This document shows, one piece after another, positions 5,654-30,605 of a DNA stretch of 34,014 bases. Source of the DNA: Paludibacteraceae bacterium. Its GTDB lineage: Bacteria > Bacteroidota > Bacteroidia > Bacteroidales > Paludibacteraceae. Position 1 is the stretch's first letter. Each line of letters starts with the position of its first letter. Both the position numbers and the translations under genes were made by a program. The notes under the pieces were generated by a model, which saw only the letters and a list, made by a program, of their open reading frames with translations, was not told the DNA's origin and ran no database searches. Location: positions 1 through 34,014 of the forward strand of contig JAKSLB010000032.1 in NCBI GenBank assembly GCA_024401435.1, in the 5' to 3' direction.

Positions 5654-6265
5654 ATGAAAAAAGTTGTCGTAAATAAAAGATTGGTTGCTGCAGAAATAGA
5701 ACATGTATTAGGCCATATAGAACTTTCCATAGAGGCAAAAAGAAAATTAAACTCTATTGTGGTTCAAGAGAAGGTTAAAAAACATGATTTGATTTTGAAG
5801 CCGGGTGAAGTATGTGATTTCTTTGGCGTTGTTCAAAAAGGAATTGTACAAGTATATCACTATAAGGATAAGAAACTTATTTCTGATTTCTTCGGAACCG
5901 AAGGGTATGGTTTCTTTGATGTGGAAAGCTTTATCACAGGAAAACCAACGGAAGCAACTATTGAGGCTTTAGAGCCTACAGTATATGTAAAAATAGATCG
6001 TAAGAAATTCTTAGCACTTTGCGATGAGGAAGAAGAATTAAATTCTGTATATCAAAAAATGTTAGAATTTGCTTTAATCTTAAGTCATAACAGATTAGAC
6101 TCTGTCTTGAACGATTCAGCAGAGGATAAATATGATAATTTGGAAAGACGAATTCCTGGATTGGCTTCCCGCATTAGCGCTATCAATGTAGCTTCTTACA
6201 TTGGTGTGACGCAGGAAACACTCTGTAGGATTAAGTCTAAACAAGAAGATTTCCTTCTTTTCTAG
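5654..6265 (+). CDS. Crp/Fnr-family transcriptional regulator (second of a tandem pair)
   Basis: A 203-residue paralogue of the preceding regulator with the same layout: a beta-roll sensor domain (HDLILKPGEVCDFFGVVQKG, IVQVYHYKDKKLISDFFGTE) and a C-terminal helix-turn-helix with the recognition segment GVTQETLCRIKSK. The sensor pockets of the two proteins differ clearly, so they may respond to different signals or form heterodimers; that is inference. It starts at the ATG at 5654 and has no promoter of its own that I can see. A small serine-rich protein gene follows, with a hairpin in between. Confidence 0.83.
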   Translation: MKKVVVNKRLVAAEIEHVLGHIELSIEAKRKLNSIVVQEKVKKHDLILKPGEVCDFFGVVQKGIVQVYHYKDKKLISDFFGTEGYGFFDVESFITGKPTEATIEALEPTVYVKIDRKKFLALCDEEEELNSVYQKMLEFALILSHNRLDSVLNDSAEDKYDNLERRIPGLASRISAINVASYIGVTQETLCRIKSKQEDFLLF

Positions 6266-6289
6266 AATAATAAGGTGTATTTTTTTTAC

Positions 6290-6310
6290 GGGGATACGTT
6301 TTGTATCCCC
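6290..6310 (+). other. GC-rich hairpin in the leader of the 149-residue protein gene
   Basis: GGGGATAC (6290-6297) and GTATCCCC (6303-6310) form a perfect 8-bp stem with a 5-base loop. On the plus strand it is not followed by a T-run; the run of eight Ts lies before it. It may stop some transcription after the second regulator gene or sit in the leader of the next gene (start 6344). Confidence 0.45.
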
Positions 6311-6343
6311 AATATATGTTTAACAAATTATTTCTTTTGGATT

Positions 6344-6793
6344 ATGTCACAAATTTCTGATTTGATTTTGAAGCAAGTACAAGCTGCTGCTTCTGGAAGT
6401 AACTTAAATAGCAACGTTTTGAATGGATTGTCAGATTCAATCTTAAATAGCTTGAAACAAACTGCTAAGTCTTCTAATGGTATTGAACAATTAACTAATT
6501 TGTTCACTGGAAAAACTTCAGCAGAATCAAGTCCAATTACTTCATTGGCTACACAAATCTTCTCTTCTCAGATTGCTTCTAAGTTGGGATTGAGTGCATC
6601 TGCATCTTCGACTGCTACTAGTTTGTTGCCAACAATTTTGAATAGCTTGGTATCTGTTGTTTCTAATAAAGGCGCAGGATTAGATCTTTCATCTATATTG
6701 TCAACTTTAGGTGCTGCAACTTCTTCTAATTCAACAGCAGGAAAATTAATTTCCGTTGCTTCAAAGTTGGGTGGACTTTTCAAGAAAAGATAA
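6344..6793 (+). CDS. Small serine/leucine-rich helical protein, DUF937/YidB-like
   Basis: The frame is open from 6275, but the start is best placed at the ATG at 6344 (MSQISDLILKQVQ), because the upstream extension would translate the hairpin at 6290-6310. This gives 149 residues, with no signal peptide and no transmembrane span. The sequence is rich in Ser, Leu, Ala and Thr and looks like a series of short amphipathic helices (TSLATQIFSSQIASKLGLSA, LLPTILNSLVSVVSNKGAGL), ending in a basic tail (GGLFKKR). The style recalls DUF937/YidB-like proteins, but I cannot confirm the family. Function unknown. It lies 78 bp after the second Crp-like gene and is followed by a strong terminator, so it may be the last gene of that unit. 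Confidence 0.7.
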   Translation: MSQISDLILKQVQAAASGSNLNSNVLNGLSDSILNSLKQTAKSSNGIEQLTNLFTGKTSAESSPITSLATQIFSSQIASKLGLSASASSTATSLLPTILNSLVSVVSNKGAGLDLSSILSTLGAATSSNSTAGKLISVASKLGGLFKKR

Positions 6794-6814
6794 AAAATAA
6801 CTCAATAGAAAATG

Positions 6815-6846
6815 AGGGCGCTATTTTTTTTAGCGCCCTTTTTTTG
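6815..6846 (+). terminator. Strong intrinsic terminator
   Basis: A perfect 9-bp stem, AGGGCGCTA (6815-6823) with TAGCGCCCT (6831-6839), with a T-only loop and a T-run after the stem. It ends the transcript of the small protein and isolates ilvE. Confidence 0.9.
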
Positions 6847-6886
6847 TTTTTTTTCTTTTTTATGGTAAACCTACTTTGAAAATCGT

Positions 6887-6894
6887 TAACTTTG
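6887..6894 (+). promoter_or_regulatory. Candidate -7 promoter box for ilvE
   Basis: TAACTTTG matches TAnnTTTG and lies 40 bases before the ilvE start, right after the preceding terminator. No well-spaced -33 TTTG is present. Confidence 0.5.
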
Positions 6895-6934
6895 GAACGT
6901 GTTTTAGAAAGAATATTATAAAACTTATAAAAAT

Positions 6935-7960
6935 ATGTCACAATTAAACATTGATTGGGCTAACCTTCCTTTTGGTTACATGCCTACAGATTACAACGTG
7001 CGTTGCTATTTTAGAAATGGCGCATGGGGAGAAATAGAGTTATGTTCGGAAGAGAACATCAACATTCATATGGCTGCAACTTGCTTGCATTATGGTCAAG
7101 AGGCTTTCGAGGGATTGAAGGCTTTCCGTTGTAAAGATGGTAAAATTCGTATTTTCCGTATGGAAGCTAATGCAGAACGTTTGCAATCTACATGTCGTGG
7201 TATTTTAATGCCTGAATTGCCTACAGAAAAGTTCTGCGAAATGGTTAAGAAGGTCGTTAAGATGAATGAACGTTTCATTCCTCCTTATGAGAGTGGAGCT
7301 TCTCTTTATATCCGTCCTCTTCTAATCGGAACGGGTGCTCAAGTTGGTGTTCGTCCAGCAAATGAATATTTGTTCGTTATCTTCGTTACTCCAGTAGGTC
7401 CTTACTTCAAGGGTGGTTTCGCAGCTAATCCATATGTTGTTATTCGTGAATTCGACCGTTCAGCTCCTCTTGGAACTGGTATTTATAAAGTCGGTGGAAA
7501 CTATGCAGCTAGTTTGTTGGCTAACAAGAAAGCTCATGATTTAGGCTATTCATGTGAATTCTATTTGGATGCTAAGGAGAAGAAATATATTGATGAGGCT
7601 GGTGCTGCTAACTTCTTCGGTATCAAAAATAATACATACATCACTCCAAAATCAACTTCTATCCTTCCTTCTATTACTAACCGTAGCTTAATGCAATTGG
7701 CTGAAGATTTAGGTTTGAAAGTTGAACGTCGTCAAATCCCTATCGAGGAGTTGGCTACATTCGAGGAGGCTGGCGCTTGCGGTACTGCTGCTGTTATCAG
7801 TCCAATCGAACGTATCGACGATTTGGAATTGAATAAGTCATACATCATCGCTAAAGATGGTAAACCAGGTCCTATCAGCAAGAAATTGTACGATAAGCTC
7901 CGTGGTATCCAATATGGTGATGAACCAGATGTTCACAATTGGGTAACTGTATTAGACTAA
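6935..7960 (+). CDS. ilvE: Branched-chain amino acid aminotransferase
   Basis: A 341-residue fold-type IV PLP enzyme that interconverts leucine, isoleucine and valine with their 2-oxo acids using glutamate/2-oxoglutarate, in the cytoplasm. Recognizable family landmarks are the N-terminal ATCLHYGQEAFEGLKAFR segment, SLYIRPLLIGTG, the PLP-lysine region GIYKVGGNYAASL (the likely Schiff-base Lys is near residue 185), and the C-terminal FEEAGACGTAAVISPI phosphate-binding segment. The length is typical for the long bacterial BCAT group. It is a single-gene unit between two strong terminators. Confidence 0.95.
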   Translation: MSQLNIDWANLPFGYMPTDYNVRCYFRNGAWGEIELCSEENINIHMAATCLHYGQEAFEGLKAFRCKDGKIRIFRMEANAERLQSTCRGILMPELPTEKFCEMVKKVVKMNERFIPPYESGASLYIRPLLIGTGAQVGVRPANEYLFVIFVTPVGPYFKGGFAANPYVVIREFDRSAPLGTGIYKVGGNYAASLLANKKAHDLGYSCEFYLDAKEKKYIDEAGAANFFGIKNNTYITPKSTSILPSITNRSLMQLAEDLGLKVERRQIPIEELATFEEAGACGTAAVISPIERIDDLELNKSYIIAKDGKPGPISKKLYDKLRGIQYGDEPDVHNWVTVLD

Positions 7961-7976
7961 TCTAATAATCACCAAA

Positions 7977-8006
7977 AAGGCGTCTCATATTGAGACGCCT
8001 TTTTTA
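7977..8006 (+). terminator. ilvE intrinsic terminator
   Basis: A perfect 11-bp stem, AAGGCGTCTCA (7977-7987) with TGAGACGCCTT (7991-8001), with a 3-base loop and a T-run. It lies between ilvE and the convergent GH43-like gene. Confidence 0.92.
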
Positions 8007-8086
8007 TTTCTTAAAAAAGAAATTTAATTTTTCAATTCAATACTATTGCTCAATTCTTTTGCTAAATCAATGGTTGTCAAATGGGA

Positions 8087-10918
8087 TTATTTTTTAATGA
8101 ACTTATAACCATTGATACTATAAATTCCACGAGAAAGCGGTATGTTTTGAATCTCTCCCTTGCTCATTGAGGTAGTATGAATAAGACGACCTGTTAAATC
8201 ATATATGGATATGTTTTGCTCTTTTAGGGAATGAAGAGTGATGTGTTCACCTTCTTCATATATTAATAATGCTATTTCTTGTTCTTCTTGATTGGTAAAT
8301 ATGAGGTCGTTTTCTGTGGTTAATTTATACCCTTTGGACTCTATCCATCGTTGATATGAGCCATCTGATTCGTCTGTAATGGTTGGATAGTTGTATTTTT
8401 TTGAATCGAAACAGAAAGCGAACTGACAAGCATTCACCTTTTCTAAGTTCCCAATACCTACAATTCCGTTAGTCGTTGGAGTGGCACTGAAATTAGTTAA
8501 AGCTTTTGATTCATTTCCTTTTGGCAAGAAGTAATAGTAACCATCATGAGTATTGGATGATACAATCTTCCAAAGTTGATTTTCGCTTCCCGTTGAGTCG
8601 GTCAAAGTGATTCCGTCGTTGCTGGTTGATAGGGCATCTCCCTCTTCTGTGGTTAGAATGTAATAGTTTCCTATGGATGAAATACGCATGGATAGGTTGA
8701 TGTTGTCATCATCTTCTGTCAGCATCATCTTTCCATCTTTGTTGGATAGTATTTTATTGGCATTTTTAGAAAGTAACAAATAAGTTTTCCCCACTTCAAA
8801 ATCAGCACACCTTCTGTATCTGTTTATCTTGTCAAAAATGGAAAGATCCCATTCTGAATAGAAATGAATGATGGGATATCCTGTTCGCATATCAATAGGT
8901 AACCAGATATGCCATGATTCTCCTACATTAGCATCACTGAAATAGTCGCCACCTTTCCATCTGTCTCCCATGAAAATATATGCGTCATATAGTTTAGGCA
9001 CTTTGAAAATATAGTTGCTTTGAGAGTGGTAACTGGTATTATAATCTCTATCTACACAAGGATTCCCCATATCATTCCAACCGCTTAGTGGCATTTGTGA
9101 ATAGGAGGAGTGTGCAGGATTAGGATCCCAACCTGTACATCCTGATGTGATGGCTACGAAGCGCTTATGATATTTAAAAATGGCAGGGGCTTCGTACTGC
9201 TTTTGAACGAACATTCGCTCCCATGTATTGCTCAGATCAAGGAAGTCGTTGGTGAGTAATGTGCCATGCATGGTCATATTCTCTTCTGCGGATCCGAAAT
9301 GGTATCCGGCATTGTAATCGGAATCGAACATGAGTGTTTGGTCGCGTGAACCAGATGGTTGTTCATCGCCACGTGGACGCATTGTCTTTAAGAAAGTATA
9401 GGGTCCTTCGATTTTGTCGCTATAAAGAATGGCTACGCGACTGGCAGCATAACCAGAGCCATTCTCCCAATGCACCCACATAACATACTTTCCAGTGTTT
9501 GGACAGTACATAACTTTCGGACGTTCCAATGTACGACCATAGTTCATATCTTGATAGTCATTGCGGAGTGCTGCTTCAGGACATTTGTAAGCCATGCATT
9601 CATATTTCCAGTTGTATAAATCTTTAGAGGTGTAGCAGACAATTCCATTACTTCGAACTGGTGATGGACGATAGTTTTCTCCAAACCAGTAATAAGTTCC
9701 ATTTTCATAAAGCACGCAGCCTCCATGAGCATTGATGTGATTGCCATCTTCGTCGTACCAATTCATTCCTAAACGAAGTGCAGAACTTCCTATATGGAAA
9801 GAGTGGTAAGGTTGCTCATTGGCATTATCCACACGAATCAAATGCCAATAATGTTTCCCGTCTGAACCATCTTTGTCGCTATACACGCCTTTAGCATCGG
9901 AGGTTCCATCTGTACCTAAGTATTTACTATTGGAACTGAATTGTAAGCGAACATAAAGATCTTCATTAGGCGCGTAAGCAATTTTAAAACGTGCTGAACT
10001 ATTAGAAGCGGAATTGACTAATTTGACACTATACTCGCCATCTGCACTCAAATAGGTGTTGGAAGCCACATTTTTGATGGCGTATGTTCCATTGCCAGCT
10101 TCTTCAAATGTGAATTGTTGCGCTGTGGTGAATTTCCTATTTTTGATCTGGATGCTATTGTTTTCGTTAGAAAGATATCGATTGCTGGCGTGCATAATGT
10201 AATATTTCACACCCGTAGTAAAGGCGGGATTCCTTTGCTCGTTATAATTTGAAAGTGCTGTGTTGAGCGCTTGAGTGGCAGAGATGACCTCTTGTTGCGA
10301 AGATGGGTTTTGTAACACATTGTCGGCATCGTTAATGGCATTTTGTAGTTTTTGTCGAACAGCATTGGTGAACTGACCTTCTCCGTCACCTGCAGAAGTT
10401 GAGGCTAAACGGTCTTCTGCTTTTGCAATGATGCTTTCCAATCCGTCGGTTACTATGTTGCTGCCGTTGGCTTCCCGTAGGAACCAATAGTGAAGTGTTT
10501 CCTTTCCATTCTTATCCGAATAGACACTGCTTCCTGCGGCAGTCCCATCTGTACCTAAATAAAGATTATTATCTGCACATTTGAATTTGACGAAATCACC
10601 ACCGCTACTCTCTATGGAAAATTTCGCCACATTGCTGGTTGAAGAGGTGTACTCGGTATTCCAAGTCTCCTTTTTGGCTACATTGGTTCCTGTTTTTTTA
10701 CTTCTGATAAGGTAATAATTGCCAGATTGAACAAATTGAAAAGTTTGACTCTCTGAACCATCAAAGGTGTGAAGGTTAGGTACGCCATCGACAGCAGAAA
10801 GAGACATTCCACTGGAGTGAAATATATAATAAGTGGTTTGTGTGCTTATGGCGAATATACAAGTTGAAAAAAATGAGAATGTACAAGTTAATAGCAGTAA
10901 TAATTTTTTGTGTATCAT
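8087..10918 (-). CDS. Secreted GH43-like (galactanase-type) protein with three beta-trefoil-like regions and a T9SS tail
   Basis: A 943-residue modular protein. Signal peptide at about 1-23. A ricin-like beta-trefoil region at about 27-150, a helical FIVAR-like segment at about 155-232, and a second trefoil-like region at about 233-365 that repeats the first (both contain the YLGTDGT and VYSDK phrases). A five-bladed GH43-type domain lies at about 372-700, opening with NAHGGCVLYENGTYYWFGEN. This opening lacks the Asp base usual in GH43 but is what I associate with exo-1,3-beta-galactanase-like GH43 (subfamily 24 type); Glu465 in ERPKV and Glu576 in YEAPAIF would be the modulator and acid. A third trefoil-like region occupies about 705-850, and the C-terminus (about 870-943, ISIYDLTGRLIHT, LSRGIYSING) is a T9SS type A sorting domain. 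Likely surface or secreted; probable substrate arabinogalactan side chains, by inference. Single gene, with no clear TAnnTTTG promoter seen upstream. Confidence 0.83.
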   Translation of the reverse strand: MIHKKLLLLLTCTFSFFSTCIFAISTQTTYYIFHSSGMSLSAVDGVPNLHTFDGSESQTFQFVQSGNYYLIRSKKTGTNVAKKETWNTEYTSSTSNVAKFSIESSGGDFVKFKCADNNLYLGTDGTAAGSSVYSDKNGKETLHYWFLREANGSNIVTDGLESIIAKAEDRLASTSAGDGEGQFTNAVRQKLQNAINDADNVLQNPSSQQEVISATQALNTALSNYNEQRNPAFTTGVKYYIMHASNRYLSNENNSIQIKNRKFTTAQQFTFEEAGNGTYAIKNVASNTYLSADGEYSVKLVNSASNSSARFKIAYAPNEDLYVRLQFSSNSKYLGTDGTSDAKGVYSDKDGSDGKHYWHLIRVDNANEQPYHSFHIGSSALRLGMNWYDEDGNHINAHGGCVLYENGTYYWFGENYRPSPVRSNGIVCYTSKDLYNWKYECMAYKCPEAALRNDYQDMNYGRTLERPKVMYCPNTGKYVMWVHWENGSGYAASRVAILYSDKIEGPYTFLKTMRPRGDEQPSGSRDQTLMFDSDYNAGYHFGSAEENMTMHGTLLTNDFLDLSNTWERMFVQKQYEAPAIFKYHKRFVAITSGCTGWDPNPAHSSYSQMPLSGWNDMGNPCVDRDYNTSYHSQSNYIFKVPKLYDAYIFMGDRWKGGDYFSDANVGESWHIWLPIDMRTGYPIIHFYSEWDLSIFDKINRYRRCADFEVGKTYLLLSKNANKILSNKDGKMMLTEDDDNINLSMRISSIGNYYILTTEEGDALSTSNDGITLTDSTGSENQLWKIVSSNTHDGYYYFLPKGNESKALTNFSATPTTNGIVGIGNLEKVNACQFAFCFDSKKYNYPTITDESDGSYQRWIESKGYKLTTENDLIFTNQEEQEIALLIYEEGEHITLHSLKEQNISIYDLTGRLIHTTSMSKGEIQNIPLSRGIYSINGYKFIKK

Positions 10919-20911: not shown

Positions 20912-22972
20912 ATGAATAAGAAATTATTTGCACTAACGGCAGCTGCGCTTATGGGTGTAGGCATAGCAAATGCTCAGTTAAATCAAAATTCCTGCAAATT
21001 TTTAGGTAACATTACTACACGCGGACAAGTTCAACCGAATGTGGGTAATTTAAAGTATGAGGATTTGTGGGATCAGTTAACACCAGAGAACGAGACTAAA
21101 TGGGGCTCTATAGCAAATAAAGAGGTACAATCCGTTGATGAGGCTTTGTCTTCTTGGAACTGGAGATCGGCAGATAGTGAGTATCAATGGTGTAAGCAAA
21201 ATGGTGTACAATTTAAGTTCCACTGTTTGCTATGGACATCTCAGTACCCTTCCTATTTGGCAAATTTTACAGGAGACAGATTGAAGAAACAAATTGATAT
21301 TTGGTTCGAAGCTGTTTCTAGGAAATATCCTGATTTGACAGTTATGGATGTGGTGAATGAGGCTATCATTGGACACGCTGAGGGTGATAACAATGGTCAG
21401 GCTAAGACATTTAAGAATAACTTAGCTAATGCCATGTCTCCAGGAAGTCAACCAAGCGATTACAAATGGATTACAGAGGCATTTAAGTTGGCTCGTAAAT
21501 TCTTCCCTAATACAATATTAATCTATAACGATTATAACACTTTTACTTGGCAGAAAAATGATTTCATTAATCTTGTTTCTACATTGGTAAAACAAGGTGC
21601 TCCAATTGATGCTTACGGACACCAAAGTCACGACTTGGATGACTACTATAAGAATAATAACATTTCTAACTTCGGTAACACTTTGAAAGAAATCCACAAT
21701 AGTATTACACAACAAGGTGGTAGAGAGTTGCAATGCTATATCACTGAGTTTGATATTTCACAAGGTGATGAAAACACTTATGAAACCATCATGAAGAATA
21801 CCTTTAAACCAATGTGGGAAGCTGACTTCGTTGCTGGTATTACAATATGGGGATTTGTGAATGGTGCTACTTGGAGAGATAACACAGGCTTGGTAACTGC
21901 TCAAGGACAAGATCGTAGCGGTATGAAGTGGTTACGTAACTATATGGCATCTGATGAAGCTAAAAACGTAAAAGCTAAATTCTGTGGCAAATCAGCTGGT
22001 GGTCCATCTGCAAGTGTTGAAGTAAGCAAATCTACTATTGTTCTTGGTAACAGCGTAGATCTCTCTGTTACATTAAACAATGCTGAAGGTGGTGTTAGAA
22101 GCGTAACTTATTATGTTGATAACAATAAGATTGGAGAAGGTGAGAAATTTACTTGGACTCCAGATAAAGCTGGTAACTATTCAATCAGTGTGGTTGCTGT
22201 TACAAACAGTGGTGATGAGGTAAAAGGAACCGCTTCTGTAAATGTAGTTGAACCAAACAAACCTTATGGTGGAACTGCAGCTGTTATCCCAGGAAGAATT
22301 GAAGCAGAAAATTATGATGAAGGTGCTTCTGGTATGGCTTATTATGATCAATCATCGGGTAATGTTTGTGATGATTTTACAAATTTTTATCGTAAAGATG
22401 ATGTTGATATAAAGGAAATCGATGGTGGCGCTGCTGTCGGTTCGTTCCAAGAAGATGAGTGGATGTCTTATACTGTGGATGTACAAGAGGAGGGTGAATA
22501 CAATGTAGTCATCCGTTTGGGTGAAGGTAATGACTCTGGTTCATTGTCAGTTGAACTTGATAAGTCAAATGTAACCTTAAAAGCAAATGTTAAAAAATTG
22601 GGTGAATGGGGTACTTTTGAAGAGGTACAATTGGAATCTGTAAATCTTTTAAAGGGTGAGCAGACAATGGTTATCAAGAATACAGGAAGTTGGATTGATG
22701 TAGACTGGATTCAATTTGAAAAGGTCGGTGGATCTAATGTTACAGAGACTGTTGCTGCACCAATCACTATTGGTCCAAACCCAGCATCTTCTGTTGTTGA
22801 AGTATATGGTGTTACACCAGTTTGTGTTGAATTTGTTTCAGCATCAGGTGTGGTCGTAAAGAAGAGCAATGAAAACATTATCTCAATTGCAGATTTGCAA
22901 AGTGGTAACTACATTGTACGTGTTATCACAGAAAATGGTGTAACAATCAAGAAACTTCTTGTAGAGAAATAA
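20912..22972 (+). CDS. Secreted GH10 endo-xylanase with Ig-like, CBM6 and T9SS sorting domains
   Basis: 686 residues. Signal peptide at about 1-21 (ending NAQ). GH10 catalytic domain at about 25-365: the acid/base Glu150 is in VMDVVNEAI and the nucleophile Glu279 in CYITEFDIS, with the HCLLWTSQYP and GITIWGFVNG segments expected of the barrel. GH10 enzymes hydrolyse beta-1,4-xylan internally. An Ig-like domain follows (about 370-450), then a CBM6-type xylan-binding domain (about 455-605; IPGRIEAENYD, DEWMSYTVDV, WIDVDWIQFE), then a T9SS type A sorting tail (about 615-686; IGPNPASSVVEVYG, LQSGNYIVRV). It should be secreted or anchored on the outer surface. It stands alone with a strong terminator. 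Confidence 0.95.
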   Translation: MNKKLFALTAAALMGVGIANAQLNQNSCKFLGNITTRGQVQPNVGNLKYEDLWDQLTPENETKWGSIANKEVQSVDEALSSWNWRSADSEYQWCKQNGVQFKFHCLLWTSQYPSYLANFTGDRLKKQIDIWFEAVSRKYPDLTVMDVVNEAIIGHAEGDNNGQAKTFKNNLANAMSPGSQPSDYKWITEAFKLARKFFPNTILIYNDYNTFTWQKNDFINLVSTLVKQGAPIDAYGHQSHDLDDYYKNNNISNFGNTLKEIHNSITQQGGRELQCYITEFDISQGDENTYETIMKNTFKPMWEADFVAGITIWGFVNGATWRDNTGLVTAQGQDRSGMKWLRNYMASDEAKNVKAKFCGKSAGGPSASVEVSKSTIVLGNSVDLSVTLNNAEGGVRSVTYYVDNNKIGEGEKFTWTPDKAGNYSISVVAVTNSGDEVKGTASVNVVEPNKPYGGTAAVIPGRIEAENYDEGASGMAYYDQSSGNVCDDFTNFYRKDDVDIKEIDGGAAVGSFQEDEWMSYTVDVQEEGEYNVVIRLGEGNDSGSLSVELDKSNVTLKANVKKLGEWGTFEEVQLESVNLLKGEQTMVIKNTGSWIDVDWIQFEKVGGSNVTETVAAPITIGPNPASSVVEVYGVTPVCVEFVSASGVVVKKSNENIISIADLQSGNYIVRVITENGVTIKKLLVEK

Positions 22973-24447: not shown

Positions 24448-25338
24448 TCATTCTCCTTCTCCGTTATTTTCGCTGTTGTTGCTATTGTCATCGCTACCAT
24501 CTTTGTCCATTGCCAAACGTAGTCCAAAGATACTAGCTGCATAATCTGGTTTACTCTTGTTTCGACAGGATGTGCGACAGAAAAGGGCAGGACCTTCGAA
24601 ATATCCTCCACGTAATACACGTTCGGTTCCTGAGGGTGCCCCTTCAGGATTGATTAACTCAGTTTCGGTGTCTTCTGGATATGGTCCGTACCAGTCGGAA
24701 CACCATTCCCATACATTCCCACTCATGTCAAAAATGCCCAATTCATTTTCTTTTCGTTTGCCTCCGGGATGTGTTTGGTCGTCTGAATTGTCTTTATACC
24801 ATGCAAGGTAATAGATGTCGCTACCACCACTGTATTTCAATCCGTTGGCCATGGTTCCTCCTCTGGCGGCATATTCCCATTCTGCTTCTGTTGGGAGTCG
24901 GTACTTGGTACCTAAAAAGGCATTGAGTTTGCTGATGAACTTTTGTGCATCATTCCAAGAAATATTGGTGACCGGAAGATCATCATTGCGTATGTCACTT
25001 GGATTCTTTCCCATGACTTCTCTCCATTGCCGTTGTGTAACCGTATATTTACAGATGGCAAAACTATGGACGAAGACTGGGTGCGCAGGCTTCTCTGGTT
25101 GTAAACATTCGTCTGCTTGTTCTGCTGTACATCCCATTTCAAAGGATCCACCTTCAACGAAGGCCATTTTAAAGTTTAAAATTGCCTTTTTTCTTGCTAT
25201 CTGATCTTGTTGATAAGCGGATGTTTGATGTTGTTGCGCTGCTTGTTGTTGCGTTGCTTGCTTTTCTCCTTTCTTAGCGGAGGTGAGTAGCAATAGTAGA
25301 CTGGCGCTTGCCAATATGATTGCAAAAAGTTTTTTCAT
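24448..25338 (-). CDS. SUMF1/FGE-sulfatase-domain protein, exported
   Basis: 296 residues. A signal peptide at about 1-21 is followed by a Gln-rich linker and then a formylglycine-generating-enzyme-like domain (about 55-275): FVEGGSFEMGC, KYTVTQRQWREVMG, LPVTNISWNDAQKFI, YRLPTEAEWEYAARGG, FDMSGNVWEWCSDWYG, RVLRGGYFEG, SIFGLRLA. Two cysteines occur in FCRTSCRN where true FGE has its catalytic pair, but they are spaced one residue closer than in the well-known enzyme, so oxidase activity is doubtful. The acidic, Asn-rich tail is unusual. No sulfatase gene is in the window. In Bacteroidetes this fold is also used for non-catalytic surface roles. It starts 11 bp after the PepSY-like gene and is probably co-transcribed with it. 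Confidence 0.82.
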   Translation of the reverse strand: MKKLFAIILASASLLLLLTSAKKGEKQATQQQAAQQHQTSAYQQDQIARKKAILNFKMAFVEGGSFEMGCTAEQADECLQPEKPAHPVFVHSFAICKYTVTQRQWREVMGKNPSDIRNDDLPVTNISWNDAQKFISKLNAFLGTKYRLPTEAEWEYAARGGTMANGLKYSGGSDIYYLAWYKDNSDDQTHPGGKRKENELGIFDMSGNVWEWCSDWYGPYPEDTETELINPEGAPSGTERVLRGGYFEGPALFCRTSCRNKSKPDYAASIFGLRLAMDKDGSDDNSNNSENNGEGE

Positions 25339-25349
25339 GAATGTAGTGA

Positions 25350-26219
25350 TTATTCTATTTTTTCTGAATTGGAATCTGTATTCTCAGTGTTTTTGGATTC
25401 AATTCGTTGGAAATCGCCTGATTTAGAGAATGAAAGTTCAACGTTATTTGGTTTGTTCAGTTTTACACGATAACCATAACTTTTTTTCTCTATGCGGCGT
25501 ATGAATTGTTCAGGATAATTATTCTCAATGTATTGATTGATTTTTTTAGGAAGTAAATCCAAGACACTTCCTGGAAGTCTTTGTGATTTGGCAATTTTTA
25601 TTTCAAACCAGTTTCCTTTTCGATCGAATTCAATTTCCGTGTTTTCTTCCAAACGAACATCGTAGTCACCATCCACATCATTCACAATGGCTATGATGGC
25701 TTTGTCTGGATAATGCTTGTTAAGAAATGCTTTGGCACTGGATGGTAGACGTTTGCCTGTTGGGTCATCACTGATGATATCTCCTTCTTTCGTGAAACTA
25801 AGTTCTACCTCATCAGGCTTGTGAAAAGTGATACGATAGATGAAGTCGTTTCTTCCGAAGAATTTTTTTTCTATTTTATGAATAGTCTTATCAGAATAGT
25901 TTTCTGTAATAAATTGATTGATACTTACAGGAAGAGTTTGCATAAGGGAAGCAGGTACTTCGTTCCAGCGGAAATTGATGCTTTCCCATTCACCGGTATT
26001 GGCGAAGTCTATTTCTGTGCCATCGTTCAATGTGACGTTATAGTCCATTTGCATTTTGGTCTCTTCAATTTTGCTTATCTCTTTTTGTTGAAAATGCTCA
26101 GAAAGAAATGTCTTGGCATCTTTGGGTAGGTCATTGTTGTTACTGCTATTTCCGCAGGATGACAATGTTAGTGAGATTGCCAATGCTGCCAATGATGTGA
26201 ATAATGTGATTTTTTTCAT
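25350..26219 (-). CDS. PepSY-like (DUF2874) lipoprotein with tandem domains
   Basis: 289 residues. The N-terminus ends in LTLSSCGNSS, a lipobox that predicts anchoring to a membrane at the Cys near residue 22. Two copies of a PepSY-like module follow (about 34-155 and 157-275), each with the pattern LP..AK.FL...., I..IE, Y.V.L.....I.F...G.W, seen as LPKDAKTFLSEHF and LPSSAKAFLNKHYPDKAI. Such proteins are periplasmic or surface proteins of unknown biochemical function in Bacteroidetes. First gene of a likely operon with the SUMF1-like protein and the GT2 gene. A -7 box lies at 26241. Confidence 0.83.
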   Translation of the reverse strand: MKKITLFTSLAALAISLTLSSCGNSSNNNDLPKDAKTFLSEHFQQKEISKIEETKMQMDYNVTLNDGTEIDFANTGEWESINFRWNEVPASLMQTLPVSINQFITENYSDKTIHKIEKKFFGRNDFIYRITFHKPDEVELSFTKEGDIISDDPTGKRLPSSAKAFLNKHYPDKAIIAIVNDVDGDYDVRLEENTEIEFDRKGNWFEIKIAKSQRLPGSVLDLLPKKINQYIENNYPEQFIRRIEKKSYGYRVKLNKPNNVELSFSKSGDFQRIESKNTENTDSNSEKIE

Positions 26220-26386: not shown

Positions 26387-26426
26387 AGAGAACTCCGAAG
26401 GCTTGGGAAAACATTCGGAGTTCTCT
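26387..26426 (-). terminator. Intrinsic terminator after the 1156-residue protein gene
   Basis: A perfect 13-bp stem, AGAGAACTCCGAA (26387-26399) and TTCGGAGTTCTCT (26414-26426), with a 14-base loop; on the minus strand it runs into a T-rich stretch. It closes the two-gene unit 30451-26485. Confidence 0.8.
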
Positions 26427-26484: not shown

Positions 26485-29400
26485 TTAATTCAAGAATCCC
26501 TTGTCAAGTGATTTCAAAGGATAAGCTTCCCAAGAACCATTTGAGTGAACGATGATAGCAACACCAGACATGTAGTTGCACCAGTTAGAAGAGGTGATTT
26601 TTATGCTACCATTCGATGCCCATTCAATCAATGGAACCATTTCTGTATCGTGAGAGATAATGATGGATAATGGATGACCATCTGTTAAGGCACATAATTG
26701 ATTGATTCTCTTAAGTGATTTTGTGTTGACATCAGATTTGTTGTTGTCATAATAGTTGGCAACAGTATTCCAGTCGGTGGAACTACAGAAATTCTCTGTG
26801 GCGATTGATAAACGAGAGTCAACGGTTCTTGCTCCAGCTTCATTCGTGCTGGCAAGAACATCGTAGTAAGATCCCATTGAGTAGTTGCCTCTACCGTTTG
26901 CTAAGTAATAGGCTGTTTCCATTGTTCTCTTAACTCCTGTGGAAGCAAAGTAGTCATTCTCTGTGCTATTGAATGGGTAACCTTTTAGTTTAGCTCCAAC
27001 GTTCTTGGCAAGATTAATACCATTTTGAGTTAACCCACCATTTACTGAATAGTCTGAACCACGTTCTGAATGTCTCATGATCACGACCAAACGATCACCA
27101 TTACCAGTGTTGATTTTTTGATATACGTTTTGAATATCGTTAAAGTCGGAACGATTCAATTGTCCTGCATAGCTATAGTTGCTTGCTTGTGAGAAAGAAG
27201 TGGTTGGAGTAGTGTTACTACTATTGTTATTGTTGTTTGAAGATGTTGAATTATTTGTCTTATAGTGGTTGTAAAGAACATCGTCAAACCACAAGCAAGG
27301 TAATCCAGCAGGAGATTCTACTGATTGGATTCTTGTGCTATGTTCGCCATGACCTGAAGAAGTAGTGGTAAATCCATTATCCAATTTGGCAATCTTATTG
27401 TAGTTCTCTGCACCAGAGTAGTTGAACATTGCATAACTGCCTTGTGCTGCATTTGCATTATAGAATGCACCTACAATACCGATAAGATAGATGTGACCTG
27501 CTTTCAATGTAATCTTACCACCATTGTTCAATTTGGTAGTGTATTTATACATTGTTTGGTTACCGACTTGATAAGTTTGACCGTAAACTTTGTGTAGACC
27601 ACCATTGTTTGCAGATACACCTTGTCCTTTTGCTCCATCAAACCATGCTAATTGTTGTGCGTTGCCTGCCTTTTGTTGATCGGCGTTTGCATAACCTTGA
27701 ACCATGGCTGAGTTTAGAGAAACGATTGATGTTAAAGAAGCACTTGTTGTGTAGTCGCTTGCTTCGTATAGTTTATAAACACAGATGCTGTGGATATCGT
27801 TACTTGAAGAAGTTAAATATTCACGACCAGAAAGAACTGAGAATGTTGTAAATGTAATATCCTCGGATGGAGTGAACATATAATATGGAGCTGGGTTAGA
27901 ATGCATATCACCAGTTACGACTGATAGATTCTTTAATTCAATTCCTGGATCTTCAACAATTGGGTCTTCTACTGTTGGATCATCTGTTGAGGGATCATCA
28001 GTAGAAGGATCACCTGTTGAAGGGTCATCAGTTGAAGGGTCATCAGTTGAAGGATTATCAGTAGAAGGATCACCTGTTGAAGGATCGGTTGGATTATCCG
28101 TGGTAGGGTCCTCTGTGGCAGGGGTCGTGTTACCAGAACCATTGGTTTTGGTATTTAATGAATCAATAACAGTAGAAAGAGAATCGACTTTTGAAAGAAG
28201 TTGAGTGTTTTTCTCATTTAATTCAGTTAGTTGAGAAGCTAATGAATTAACAAGAGTAGCCAAGTTGTTGAGTTCAGCCTTGGTGATATATTCGGCATCG
28301 TTAGCGAATGAACTCACGTTGGCGGGAACTTCGTCTGGTTTTGCATTCCATTTTGCGACATCTTCTGCAGAAATAGAAGCGGCAGCGGATTGCGCGAACA
28401 GAGGATCGATTTCTTGTTCTGTTTTGTTGTTCCATTTTTCTATATCATCGTTGGTGATAGTAGAAGCAACAGAAGCATTGAAGATAGGATCTGTTTCTGC
28501 ACTTAGTTTGTTACCCCAACGGGTTGTGTCAGCTTCGGTAATGGCAGCAGCAACAGGAATGTCTGTCTTGGCAATATAGCTTTTGTCATTTTCCAAATCT
28601 GAAACTTTAGATGGAACTGTCACTTGAGGAACATCAGCTAAGGTGATGTAATTAGCATCGTTTGTAAGAGCGCTAACATTTGTGGGGATTTCGCTTTTCA
28701 TTGCATAACCTTCCAATGATTGGTGTTCTGTTAAATAGTCACCCTTAGGTTGGTAGGTAGCTTGTGCTTCCGTTGCACTTAGTAAGCCTTCGGTGCTTGG
28801 TATTTCGCTTGCTTTTACATAATTTGCATCGTTTTCAAGTTCTGAAACTTTTGTAGGAACGTTAGTCGTAGGAACATCATTTAATGTGATGTAGTTGGCA
28901 TCGTTTTCAAGTTCGCTAACTTTTGTAGGAATTTCTGTTTGAGGGATGTCGTTGATGGTGATGTATTCTTTATCGTTTTCTAACTCACTCACTTTGGTGG
29001 GAATGTTCAAATTCTTCAAAGAATCACGAGTCAAATAGTTGTTAGGAATTTCACTTTTCTTTGCATATTCATCTAAAGATTGATGTTCGGTAAGATAATC
29101 ACCTTTAGGTTGGTAAAGCGCTTGCGCTTCAGCTTCGCTTAGCATGTTGCCTGTTTCTGCTTGAATGCTTTCGATTGTACTTTGAATACCTTCGATAGTG
29201 TTTTGTAACTCATCAGTATTAGGAATTTCACTTTTCTTAGCATATTCTTCCAAAGATTGATGTTCGGTTAAATAGTTGCCTTTGGGTTGATAAGTAGCAG
29301 CAGCTTCTGCGGCAGTAATGCCGTTTGTGCTTGGTAATTGGCTCTTTTTAACATAGAAAGTGATGTATTCTTTTTCGTTGTCCAAATCACCGACTGTAGG

Positions 29401-29955
29401 TTGATAATTTGGAATTTGGTCGACAGTGACGTAGTTGGCATCATTTTCTAATTCGCTTGTCTTACTTGGAATGGTTGGCGTGTTTTGAATCTCATCGTAT
29501 TGATAGGTTGGCTTTTCCTCTGAAACCCATGAAGGAAGAGCGTCTGGAGAAACACGTTCTGCATAAAGAGCGTAAGGTACACTCATAATTTGGCTTGTGA
29601 GTGCCAATGTGTAGTTTGTACCAGCTTTTTTGTCGATTTCGCAACGTAAGAAGAATGGACCATCAGACCAGTCGATGTCGGAAATGTTGTAAGTGCTTGT
29701 TCCGTTGCCATCACCTATGGCGAAATCAACAAGACCGTTTGAATTGGTTCTCTCTTGGCGTGTTTCAGTGTATACGACACTACCATTTTCAGAATATTGA
29801 AGGATGGTAATTCTGACACCTACTGGAGTGTTAGCTAAAAGTGAACCAGTGTTGTCTTTTACAATTGCTTGATAACTGATAGTTTGCGGTGTTGCTGCAA
29901 AAGCAATAATGGTGAAAAATAACTCTAAAAAGATAGAGCAAAAAAACTTTTTCAT
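26485..29955 (-). CDS. Secreted tail-fibre-like repeat protein fused to a histidine-phosphatase domain
   Basis: 1156 residues. Signal peptide at about 1-21. An N-terminal domain (about 22-135; ISYQAIVKDNTGSLLANTPV, SQIMSVPYALYAE) of a type common at the start of Bacteroidetes tail-fibre-like proteins. Residues about 150-560 are repeats of two kinds, KVSELENDANYIT-like and QPKGDYLTEHQSLEEYAKKS-like, resembling phage tail-fibre repeats. A coiled coil lies at about 566-606, then a Asp/Pro/Ser/Thr linker (about 617-672), a beta-rich unknown domain (about 680-895), an Asn/Ser linker, and at about 945-1156 a histidine-phosphatase-superfamily domain: RHSERG near 961 (catalytic His), TGVKRTMETA, and SHDTEM near 1102. 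The HD pair recalls the acid phosphatase/phytase branch. No T9SS tail is present. It begins 4 bp after a small T9SS-tail protein gene. Confidence 0.8.
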   Translation of the reverse strand: MKKFFCSIFLELFFTIIAFAATPQTISYQAIVKDNTGSLLANTPVGVRITILQYSENGSVVYTETRQERTNSNGLVDFAIGDGNGTSTYNISDIDWSDGPFFLRCEIDKKAGTNYTLALTSQIMSVPYALYAERVSPDALPSWVSEEKPTYQYDEIQNTPTIPSKTSELENDANYVTVDQIPNYQPTVGDLDNEKEYITFYVKKSQLPSTNGITAAEAAATYQPKGNYLTEHQSLEEYAKKSEIPNTDELQNTIEGIQSTIESIQAETGNMLSEAEAQALYQPKGDYLTEHQSLDEYAKKSEIPNNYLTRDSLKNLNIPTKVSELENDKEYITINDIPQTEIPTKVSELENDANYITLNDVPTTNVPTKVSELENDANYVKASEIPSTEGLLSATEAQATYQPKGDYLTEHQSLEGYAMKSEIPTNVSALTNDANYITLADVPQVTVPSKVSDLENDKSYIAKTDIPVAAAITEADTTRWGNKLSAETDPIFNASVASTITNDDIEKWNNKTEQEIDPLFAQSAAASISAEDVAKWNAKPDEVPANVSSFANDAEYITKAELNNLATLVNSLASQLTELNEKNTQLLSKVDSLSTVIDSLNTKTNGSGNTTPATEDPTTDNPTDPSTGDPSTDNPSTDDPSTDDPSTGDPSTDDPSTDDPTVEDPIVEDPGIELKNLSVVTGDMHSNPAPYYMFTPSEDITFTTFSVLSGREYLTSSSNDIHSICVYKLYEASDYTTSASLTSIVSLNSAMVQGYANADQQKAGNAQQLAWFDGAKGQGVSANNGGLHKVYGQTYQVGNQTMYKYTTKLNNGGKITLKAGHIYLIGIVGAFYNANAAQGSYAMFNYSGAENYNKIAKLDNGFTTTSSGHGEHSTRIQSVESPAGLPCLWFDDVLYNHYKTNNSTSSNNNNNSSNTTPTTSFSQASNYSYAGQLNRSDFNDIQNVYQKINTGNGDRLVVIMRHSERGSDYSVNGGLTQNGINLAKNVGAKLKGYPFNSTENDYFASTGVKRTMETAYYLANGRGNYSMGSYYDVLASTNEAGARTVDSRLSIATENFCSSTDWNTVANYYDNNKSDVNTKSLKRINQLCALTDGHPLSIIISHDTEMVPLIEWASNGSIKITSSNWCNYMSGVAIIVHSNGSWEAYPLKSLDKGFLN

Positions 29956-29959
29956 AAGA

Positions 29960-30451
29960 TTACTCTTTTATGATTTTAATTGTGATAAATTCGTCTTTGT
30001 TTGAATTGATAAAGATTTTCAACAGATAAGAACCGATTGCCTGACCTGCTAATGAGAATTGTGCACTCTGTCTTATTTGACCCTGTTGCATGAGCTTACC
30101 CTCAACATTGGTGAGTGTGTAGGGATGTTCTTCCGAGTCGTTGACAGTGACTTGAAAGTTGTCTTTTGTTGGATTGGGAAATGCAGACACTTCGAATTTA
30201 ACGTAGTTTTCATTAGAGGAATGAGTGGTGCGAGCTAATTCACTGGCAGCTTGTTGTATACCTGCATTCACTTGTCCATCAGTACTGGATGTGTGCTTGA
30301 AATCTACTTGCCCGATTGAACAAGATAAACTTCCTTCTTCGGTCGTGATGTCGCCTCCTCCGGCTACAATACCAGATTGAGCAAATGCGCTTCCAAACAT
30401 TGTTAGCGGGATTATACAAGTTAACAATCCCCTTTTGCTAAAAAATTTCAT
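29960..30451 (-). CDS. Small secreted protein with T9SS type A sorting domain
   Basis: 163 residues. Signal peptide at about 1-24 (FGSAFAQ). A short N-terminal module (SGIVAGGGDITTEEGSLSCS, IGQVDFKHTSS, GQVNAGIQQ) is a motif I associate with small Bacteroidetes proteins encoded beside tail-fibre-like proteins. The C-terminal half (about 85-163; VSAFPNPTKDNFQVTV, YTLTNVEGKLMQQGQI, GSYLLKIF) is a T9SS type A sorting domain, so it should be exported by T9SS. It is the first gene of a two-gene operon with a clear -33/-7 promoter. Possible role: carrier or anchor for the large protein that lacks its own tail; this is inference. Confidence 0.82.
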   Translation of the reverse strand: MKFFSKRGLLTCIIPLTMFGSAFAQSGIVAGGGDITTEEGSLSCSIGQVDFKHTSSTDGQVNAGIQQAASELARTTHSSNENYVKFEVSAFPNPTKDNFQVTVNDSEEHPYTLTNVEGKLMQQGQIRQSAQFSLAGQAIGSYLLKIFINSNKDEFITIKIIKE

Positions 30452-30573: not shown

Positions 30574-30605
30574 CAAAATTATGATTAATTTTTTGTGTGA
30601 CCAAA
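30574..30605 (-). promoter_or_regulatory. Promoter of the T9SS-tail/phosphatase operon
   Basis: On the minus strand, TTTG (complement of 30602-30605), a 20-bp spacer, and TAATTTTG (complement of 30574-30581): the best full -33/-7 Bacteroidetes promoter in the window. The leader would be about 115 nt. Confidence 0.78.

Follow-up and report, generated by a model that had tools for sequence, protein, structure and literature searches.

The fibre proteins closest to the subject of this report are the MAT fibres of Bdellovibrio bacteriovorus, which serve in prey recognition and for which PMC10769870 names no partner on the surface of the predator. These trimeric proteins carry a signal peptide, a beta-rich N-terminal domain of ~120-130 residues represented by family NF053851, and a long fibre, and their C-terminal tips vary on the common N-terminal domain. 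Here we describe a gene pair on a 34,014-nucleotide contig of a Paludibacteraceae bacterium (JAKSLB010000032.1; this whole stretch is called the window below). One gene encodes a 163-residue protein with a C-terminal sorting domain (CTD) of the type IX secretion system (T9SS), and the other encodes a 1156-residue, CTD-less fibre protein with a MAT-like N-terminal domain and a tip predicted to adopt a histidine phosphatase fold. The reading we favour, with a probability of roughly 0.6, is that this is a MAT-like fibre of the Bacteroidota that would be carried or held by its T9SS partner, and whose tip would act on phosphate groups with which it comes into contact.

The likeness to MAT fibres extends to the presence of S74 tips in both sets. 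The window pair differs in having a T9SS partner gene, a stalk with VSELEND-type repeats, an enzyme-fold tip, and a family score below the curated cut-off, and the fibre is known from single-chain prediction whereas MAT fibres are trimers. By domain content, the small protein belongs among the T9SS type A substrates (TIGR04183), but the fibre itself does not carry the sorting domain. The arrangement is also distinct from that of the adhesin pairs of PMC12618676, which have a type B CTD and a PorP/SprF shuttle and in which the adhesin carries the CTD; in the window pair, the small partner does. A preliminary description of the locus, prepared from the sequence alone, had stated that no system of this make-up was known. 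This must be qualified for the fibre half, which is homologous to described MAT fibres, but we found no description of either the enzyme tip or the partner with a T9SS tail. Specifically, the literature searched yielded no description of a T9SS-linked MAT-like fibre, although Supplementary Tables 3 and 4 of PMC10769870, which are said to list further domains in other bacteria, may contain members from the Bacteroidota. What appears new is a MAT-like fibre that is linked to the T9SS and ends in an enzyme fold.

A MAT-like fibre beside a T9SS cargo protein

Residues 1-150 of the fibre match the Bdello_MAT_N model (NF053851) with E=1.4e-12 and 47.7 bits, and we use the name “MAT-like” because homology to this family is clear while formal membership is absent. 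The same model matches all 38 aligned N-terminal domains, which had been chosen for their likeness to that of the window (best E=5.8e-15). A structure model of residues 1-160 (pLDDT 76, pTM 0.64) places six strands between positions 26 and 122 with moderate confidence, and it matched nothing in the Protein Data Bank (PDB) at E<=0.001. Both the beta-rich character of the model and its lack of a PDB match agree with PMC10769870, where MAT N-terminal domains are described as beta-rich segments of ~130 residues directly after the signal peptide. A phage origin of the domain was rejected, given that it has no phage match.

To gauge the distribution of the fibre, we relied on a sample of 150 genomes of the family, the window's own included, from which 40 loci were fetched at matching places. 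The N-terminal domain is present in 53 of the 150 genomes and the phosphatase domain in 11. Among the 29 complete family fibres, the tips on the common N-terminal domain differ and include phosphatase, S74, Lcl_C, InlB repeat, and BclA_C domains, among others. When tips are taken from the best 25 of 62 matching Pfam families, many of which are coiled-coil models, InlB repeats, Lcl_C, and His_Phos_1 are each found in three fibres, S74 in two, and BclA_C in one, whereas direct comparison finds the phosphatase tip in six of the 29.

In a tree of N-terminal domains, one branch (95/94) divides the eight phosphatase-tipped rows from 23 others. Eight additional rows with an unknown tip were excluded from this comparison; in one, L086, the phosphatase is encoded by the next open reading frame (ORF). 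With all eight phosphatase-tipped rows grouped in this way, one origin of the phosphatase tip suffices. Phosphatase tips scattered over the tree had been expected; the grouping observed instead gives no evidence that this tip was swapped repeatedly. In the L086 locus (6078-8660), the phosphatase-tipped fibre is split into two ORFs of 469 and 354 residues, through either a frame break or an assembly error. The fibres of loci L070-L075, from genomes of the same genus as the window, share its N-terminal domain but end in a different C-terminal domain. A small T9SS partner lies 73-83 bp upstream of six of these seven fibres, and the seventh (L074) starts at a contig end.

The small protein exceeds the cut-offs both of Pfam Por_Secre_tail (31 versus 27 bits) and of TIGR04183 (33.7 versus 23 bits), which identifies its C-terminal region as a type A T9SS sorting domain, and by eye it has a signal-like start. 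All 30 aligned small proteins, including that of the window, match TIGR04183 at E<=0.01, and 12 of the 30 match NF050177. A link to P. gingivalis TapA/TapC was considered for these proteins and dropped; the NF050177 match may reflect the common CTD only. For the 1156-residue protein, searches of Pfam and NCBIfam detected no CTD family at E<=1, in keeping with the preliminary description, which had noted that the large protein has no T9SS tail.

The layout originally proposed, in which a 163-residue T9SS-tail gene precedes a 1156-residue gene after a gap of 4 bp on the minus strand, was confirmed in both ORFs and their coordinates, and the same pairing recurs in other Bacteroidales genomes. The gene upstream of the 38 readable family fibre genes, the window's included, is a CTD gene in 34 cases, a fibre gene in one, and another gene in three; a further three fibres had no upstream sequence. 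In 30 of the 34 pairs, the CTD gene lies within 100 bp of the fibre gene. Two of the 34 encode long CTD proteins, and one is a small gene broken into two ORFs. By comparison, a CTD was detected in four of 300 other genes, a contrast that is somewhat flattered because these same small proteins had served to build the profile. The small gene accompanies all eight phosphatase fibres for which the contig extends to the 5′ end (the window, L086, L088, L092, L093, L097, L099, and L100), the remaining seven of the 15 being cut at a contig edge. Across the phylum, 33 fibre ORFs were found in 29 best-match loci, and a CTD gene is directly upstream of 19. These counts rule out chance neighbours as an account of the pair, and because the phosphatase profile, the fold, the catalytic motifs, and the gene pairing all recur in relatives, we regard the pair as more than a coincidence of position.

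In a sample of 296 genomes of the phylum, the T9SS translocon SprA was detected in all 50 genomes with a MAT-like N-terminal domain and in 178 of the 246 without one (Fisher p=6e-7, ignoring shared ancestry), and none of the 68 SprA-negative genomes has the domain. The window's own genome encodes a T9SS translocon, with an SprA match of 2373 bits against a cut-off of 200.

The histidine phosphatase tip

The core of the histidine phosphatase superfamily is an RH...R...H arrangement, and an HD at the later position marks the acid phosphatase branch. The preliminary description had assigned the end of the fibre to this superfamily and proposed that its fold be modelled and compared. An AlphaFold2 model of residues 925-1156 built from 17 sequences (pLDDT 84.2, pTM 0.86) matched 102 PDB chains at E<=0.001 in Foldseek, with PGAM5 at 2.9e-6. 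PGAM5, RosC, and an acid phosphatase make up the ten best matches, and SixA appears lower down. These matches rule out an unrelated fold and indicate that the modelled tip shares both fold and core with these enzymes, from which it differs in being the tip of a fibre. In the model, RH ends the first strand, Arg1010 begins a helix, and HD lies between a strand and a helix, which is the usual order in the superfamily.

Sequence conservation points in the same direction. The motifs begin at positions 961 (RHSERG), 1008 (VKRTMET), and 1101 (SHDTEM), and residues R961, H962, R965, R1010, H1102, and D1103 are invariant in two tip alignments, A1 (12 rows) and A2 (17 rows). The A1 columns R31, H32, R80, and H172, which correspond to the superfamily RH, second arginine, and later histidine, are invariant in all 12 rows. 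RHxxR and [ST]HD are retained in 27 of 27 tip sequences, the window's included, even though the other 16 members of A2 are only 28-41% identical to the window tip. The assignment of the HD to the acid phosphatase branch is upheld under the usual branch rules. By the same rules, the tip combines the size of branch 1 with two features of branch 2, namely HD and RHxxR.

Profile comparisons place the tip at some distance from named families. It falls under the Pfam gathering cut-offs of both His_Phos_1 (16.8 versus 21.7 bits) and His_Phos_2 (11.6 versus 23.6 bits). His_Phos_1 is recovered at E<=1 in seven of the 12 A1 sequences, and a Fibrobacter relative surpasses the cut-off of 21.7 for this family with 42 bits. 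A 12-sequence tip profile found the putative phosphoglycerate mutase 3eoz in the PDB at 2.9e-6, and PGAM5 at E=0.28. Residues 933-1021 show a weak profile likeness to the lipopolysaccharide heptose phosphatase PmrG/Ais (NF052369); membership was rejected, the score of 18.1 bits falling below the cut-off of 170. The MINPP-type InsP6 phosphatase of Bacteroides is a branch 2 enzyme from gut Bacteroidota and belongs to the same superfamily, but the window tip matches His_Phos_2 at only E=0.18. This rules out a good match to the phytase-holding branch and leaves phytate, which had been suggested as a substrate, without specific support.

Stalk, flanking sequence, and relatives of the tip

The positions of the features discussed in this report are collected in Table 1.

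Table 1. Features of the gene pair and its flanks, in window coordinates
Feature	Positions	Strand	Basis
Fibre gene, 1156 residues	26485-29955	-	ORF list
Signal-peptide-like start, fibre residues 1-20	29896-29955	-	by eye; helix 2-17 in model
MAT-like beta-rich N-terminal domain, residues 21-140	29536-29895	-	NF053851 match; structure model
Repeat stalk, residues 141-555, VSELEND and YQPKG..YLTEHQSL repeats	28291-29535	-	repeat inspection; PHROGs; tblastn
Putative coiled coil, residues ~556-612	28120-28290	-	heptads by eye; weak coiled-coil family matches
Acidic DPST-rich linker, residues ~613-672	27940-28119	-	composition
Beta-strand-looking region, residues 690-905	27241-27888	-	appearance of sequence
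Predicted histidine phosphatase tip domain, residues 931-1156	26488-27165	-	AlphaFold2; Foldseek; alignments A1 and A2
RHSER: R961, H962 (expected phospho-acceptor), R965	27061-27075	-	invariant in A1 and A2
R1010, second conserved arginine (VKRTMET)	26926-26928	-	invariant in A1 and A2
H1102-D1103 (SHD)	26647-26652	-	[ST]HD conservation
Small T9SS protein gene, 163 residues, first of pair	29960-30451	-	ORF list
Mature N-terminal part, small protein residues ~25-90, SxSxxVGQ motif	30182-30379	-	small-protein alignment
T9SS type A C-terminal sorting domain, small protein residues 91-162	29966-30181	-	TIGR04183
Candidate promoter of pair, TTTG/TAnnTTTG, weak	30574-30605	-	pattern scan
Inverted repeat, 12-bp arms, possible terminator downstream of fibre gene	26388-26425	.	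read from sequence

The phage-fibre-like repeats attributed to the stalk were recovered as six VSELEND-type and three YQPKG..YLTEHQSL units. The stalk matches phrog_24103, a family of unknown function (E=5.5e-10), and is weakly similar to phage tail-fibre proteins in three phage records (best E=6e-7); one annotated phage tail fiber protein matches it by tblastn at E=2e-6. A stretch similar to the putative coiled coil that follows the stalk is kept in four named relatives. The acidic linker, also correctly anticipated, has 21 D/E among the 75 residues from position 609. Its D/P/S/T content is 49 of 60 residues in the window copy and does not exceed 28 of 60 in any of the 14 remaining ORFs for phosphatase fibres, in most of which a coiled-coil-like stretch leads straight into the tip. 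The beta-looking region is matched in none of the named phosphatase loci, and the PDB offered no convincing match to it. Beyond the window it gave one weak match in 200 genomes of the family (E=0.0016) and two in 295 genomes of the class (E=0.0017 and 0.0078). Judged from these comparisons, the acidic linker and the beta-looking region appear to be found only in the window copy.

One promoter had been suggested to serve both genes. The candidate in Table 1 is the sole upstream match on the right strand to TTTG/TAnnTTTG, which we take to be the Bacteroidales-type promoter pattern, but this pattern is seen four times in the window when 3.98 occurrences are expected by chance, and the suggestion is thus not borne out. 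A terminator scan of the window listed nothing at the position of the inverted repeat. FGE-sulfatase-like and PepSY-like genes adjoin the fibre gene (24448-26219) and are 73-80% identical to their counterparts in the corresponding loci of two further genomes from the same genus, and apart from the linker and the beta-looking region the locus is shared. Further away, the window encodes a xylanase of family GH10 that also carries CBM6 and a T9SS tail (20912-22972, +).

Named relatives of the tip are mostly from Bacteroidales, and several record titles name the guts of horse, water buffalo, goat, and yak. One genome of F. succinogenes yielded ten matches to the tip profile (L151-L155, L101), and several of these relatives look lipoprotein-like by eye, with Ser-rich stretches. 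A Gracilibacteria-type relative at L089 (7284-8702, +) is a 472-residue protein under genetic code 25 (TGA=Gly) that combines the phosphatase domain with an SLH domain (24.3 bits versus a cut-off of 20.8). The long neighbouring genes of L089 are likewise open only under code 25. In total, two strong and two weak tip matches came from the 192 genomes covered by this search, with a second Gracilibacteria-type genome among them. In the best tree, the Gracilibacteria-type tips nest among those of Bacteroidales, but the approximately unbiased (AU) test does not reject a topology in which the Bacteroidales tips form one group (p=0.107, or 0.052 without the phage row).

A phage contig (C35) in the window's own genome bin encodes a 309-residue relative of the tip (L060 7310-8239, +), directly followed by a patatin-like gene. 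The contig also carries a baseplate wedge (phrog_219) and a clamp loader (phrog_225). By eye only, the genes upstream of the tip relative look fibre-like; they matched no Pfam family and nearly nothing in PHROGs. The viral structures that the tip matches are histidine phosphatases from giant viruses and from phages, with no fibre among them. Nothing useful came from single-sequence scans of genome contigs and viral contigs, from scans of viral contigs with alignment A1 and with the phage-contig homologue, or from searches of phage records with that homologue, the tip, and the N-terminal domain.

Proposed mechanism and competing explanations

We propose that both proteins reach the periplasm by means of Sec signal peptides. 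The type A CTD would take the small protein through the T9SS to the cell surface, and the CTD-less fibre would be exported with the small protein or held outside by it. Contact would be made between the MAT-like domain of the fibre and the mature region that precedes the CTD in the small protein, which we propose as the docking part. The fibre would then jut out as a stalk, probably as a trimer, with the phosphatase at its end. By analogy with the superfamily, His962 would take the phosphate, which Arg961, Arg965, Arg1010, and His1102 would bind, and Asp1103 is the likely acid. The targets would be phosphate groups on contacted material, and our best guess is that these belong to phosphorylated glycans, either on other cells or in plant material.

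Several observations weigh against this proposal. The passage of the fibre across the outer membrane is a step that we infer. The score of the window N-terminal domain is under the curated NF053851 cut-off of 60 bits, which was passed in none of the 296 phylum genomes. Likewise, the TM-scores of the tip by query length are moderate, at 0.39-0.52 among the best 50 of the 102 PDB matches. The CTD background rate may be too low, given the origin of the profile. No CTD gene is upstream of 14 of the 33 phylum fibres; five of these are second in a fibre tandem, an explanation that does not cover the other nine. Shared ancestry may affect the SprA statistic, as 16 of the 20 SprA-negative genomes that were listed (from a total of 68) belong to one family. 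In addition, three of the six SprA-negative genomes of the family sample (G066, G081, and G100) have a fibre match, although these drafts are 88-94% complete and the absence of SprA may therefore be an assembly gap.

It is conceivable that the two proteins have separate jobs, with the small protein travelling through the T9SS on its own account while the fibre either uses another route or stays in the periplasm. We consider this unlikely. Contact between the two proteins is our own proposal, and the family fibres that follow another gene (3/38) or a second fibre (1/38), together with the nine phylum fibres that have neither upstream, are what this explanation would predict. To our knowledge, Bdellovibrio has no T9SS, which also favours a route of this kind. 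According to PMC10769870, its MAT fibres are found on the cell surface. However, pairing with a CTD gene extends across the phylum, mostly within ~100 bp, and in the phylum sample the fibres are found only in SprA genomes.

The purpose of the tip could also differ from the one we propose. One possibility, which keeps the same anatomy and is rather doubtful in our judgement, is that the tip is a nutrient enzyme, a surface phosphatase freeing phosphate from plant matter (for example, from inositol phosphates such as phytate) in herbivore guts. The gut sources named in the record titles and the ten family matches in one Fibrobacter succinogenes genome fit this idea. Nevertheless, the poor match to His_Phos_2 argues against it, there is no phosphate-uptake gene among the eight window proteins scanned (the fibre and its neighbours included), and the long fibre, the relative on a phage contig, and the Gracilibacteria-type relative with an SLH domain point to contact with other surfaces. 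It seems quite improbable that the phosphatase fold merely holds a phosphorylated ligand, with catalysis unimportant, in the manner of the MAT tips, which PMC10769870 describes as adhesive. The catalytic motifs are kept in every tip sequence despite the low overall identity.

A broader and more tentative interpretation, which we consider less likely than not, goes further. The pair would exemplify a two-partner T9SS route in which a small CTD protein both escorts and anchors a CTD-less MAT-like fibre, and this module would occur across the Bacteroidota with differing tips. In gut lineages, the module would carry a phosphatase whose family passes from one carrier to another (Bacteroidales fibres, Gracilibacteria, Fibrobacter, and phages) and serves to alter the phosphorylated surface of other cells.

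The presence of a MAT-homologous N-terminal domain beside a T9SS cargo protein in many Bacteroidota provides a candidate for the fibre's partner in this phylum and, with it, a handle on the way in which these fibres are retained. Should the fibre be transported along with its partner, cargo of the T9SS would include proteins devoid of the T9SS signal. Moreover, an enzyme at the tip would extend the use of these fibres from gripping contacted material to altering it.

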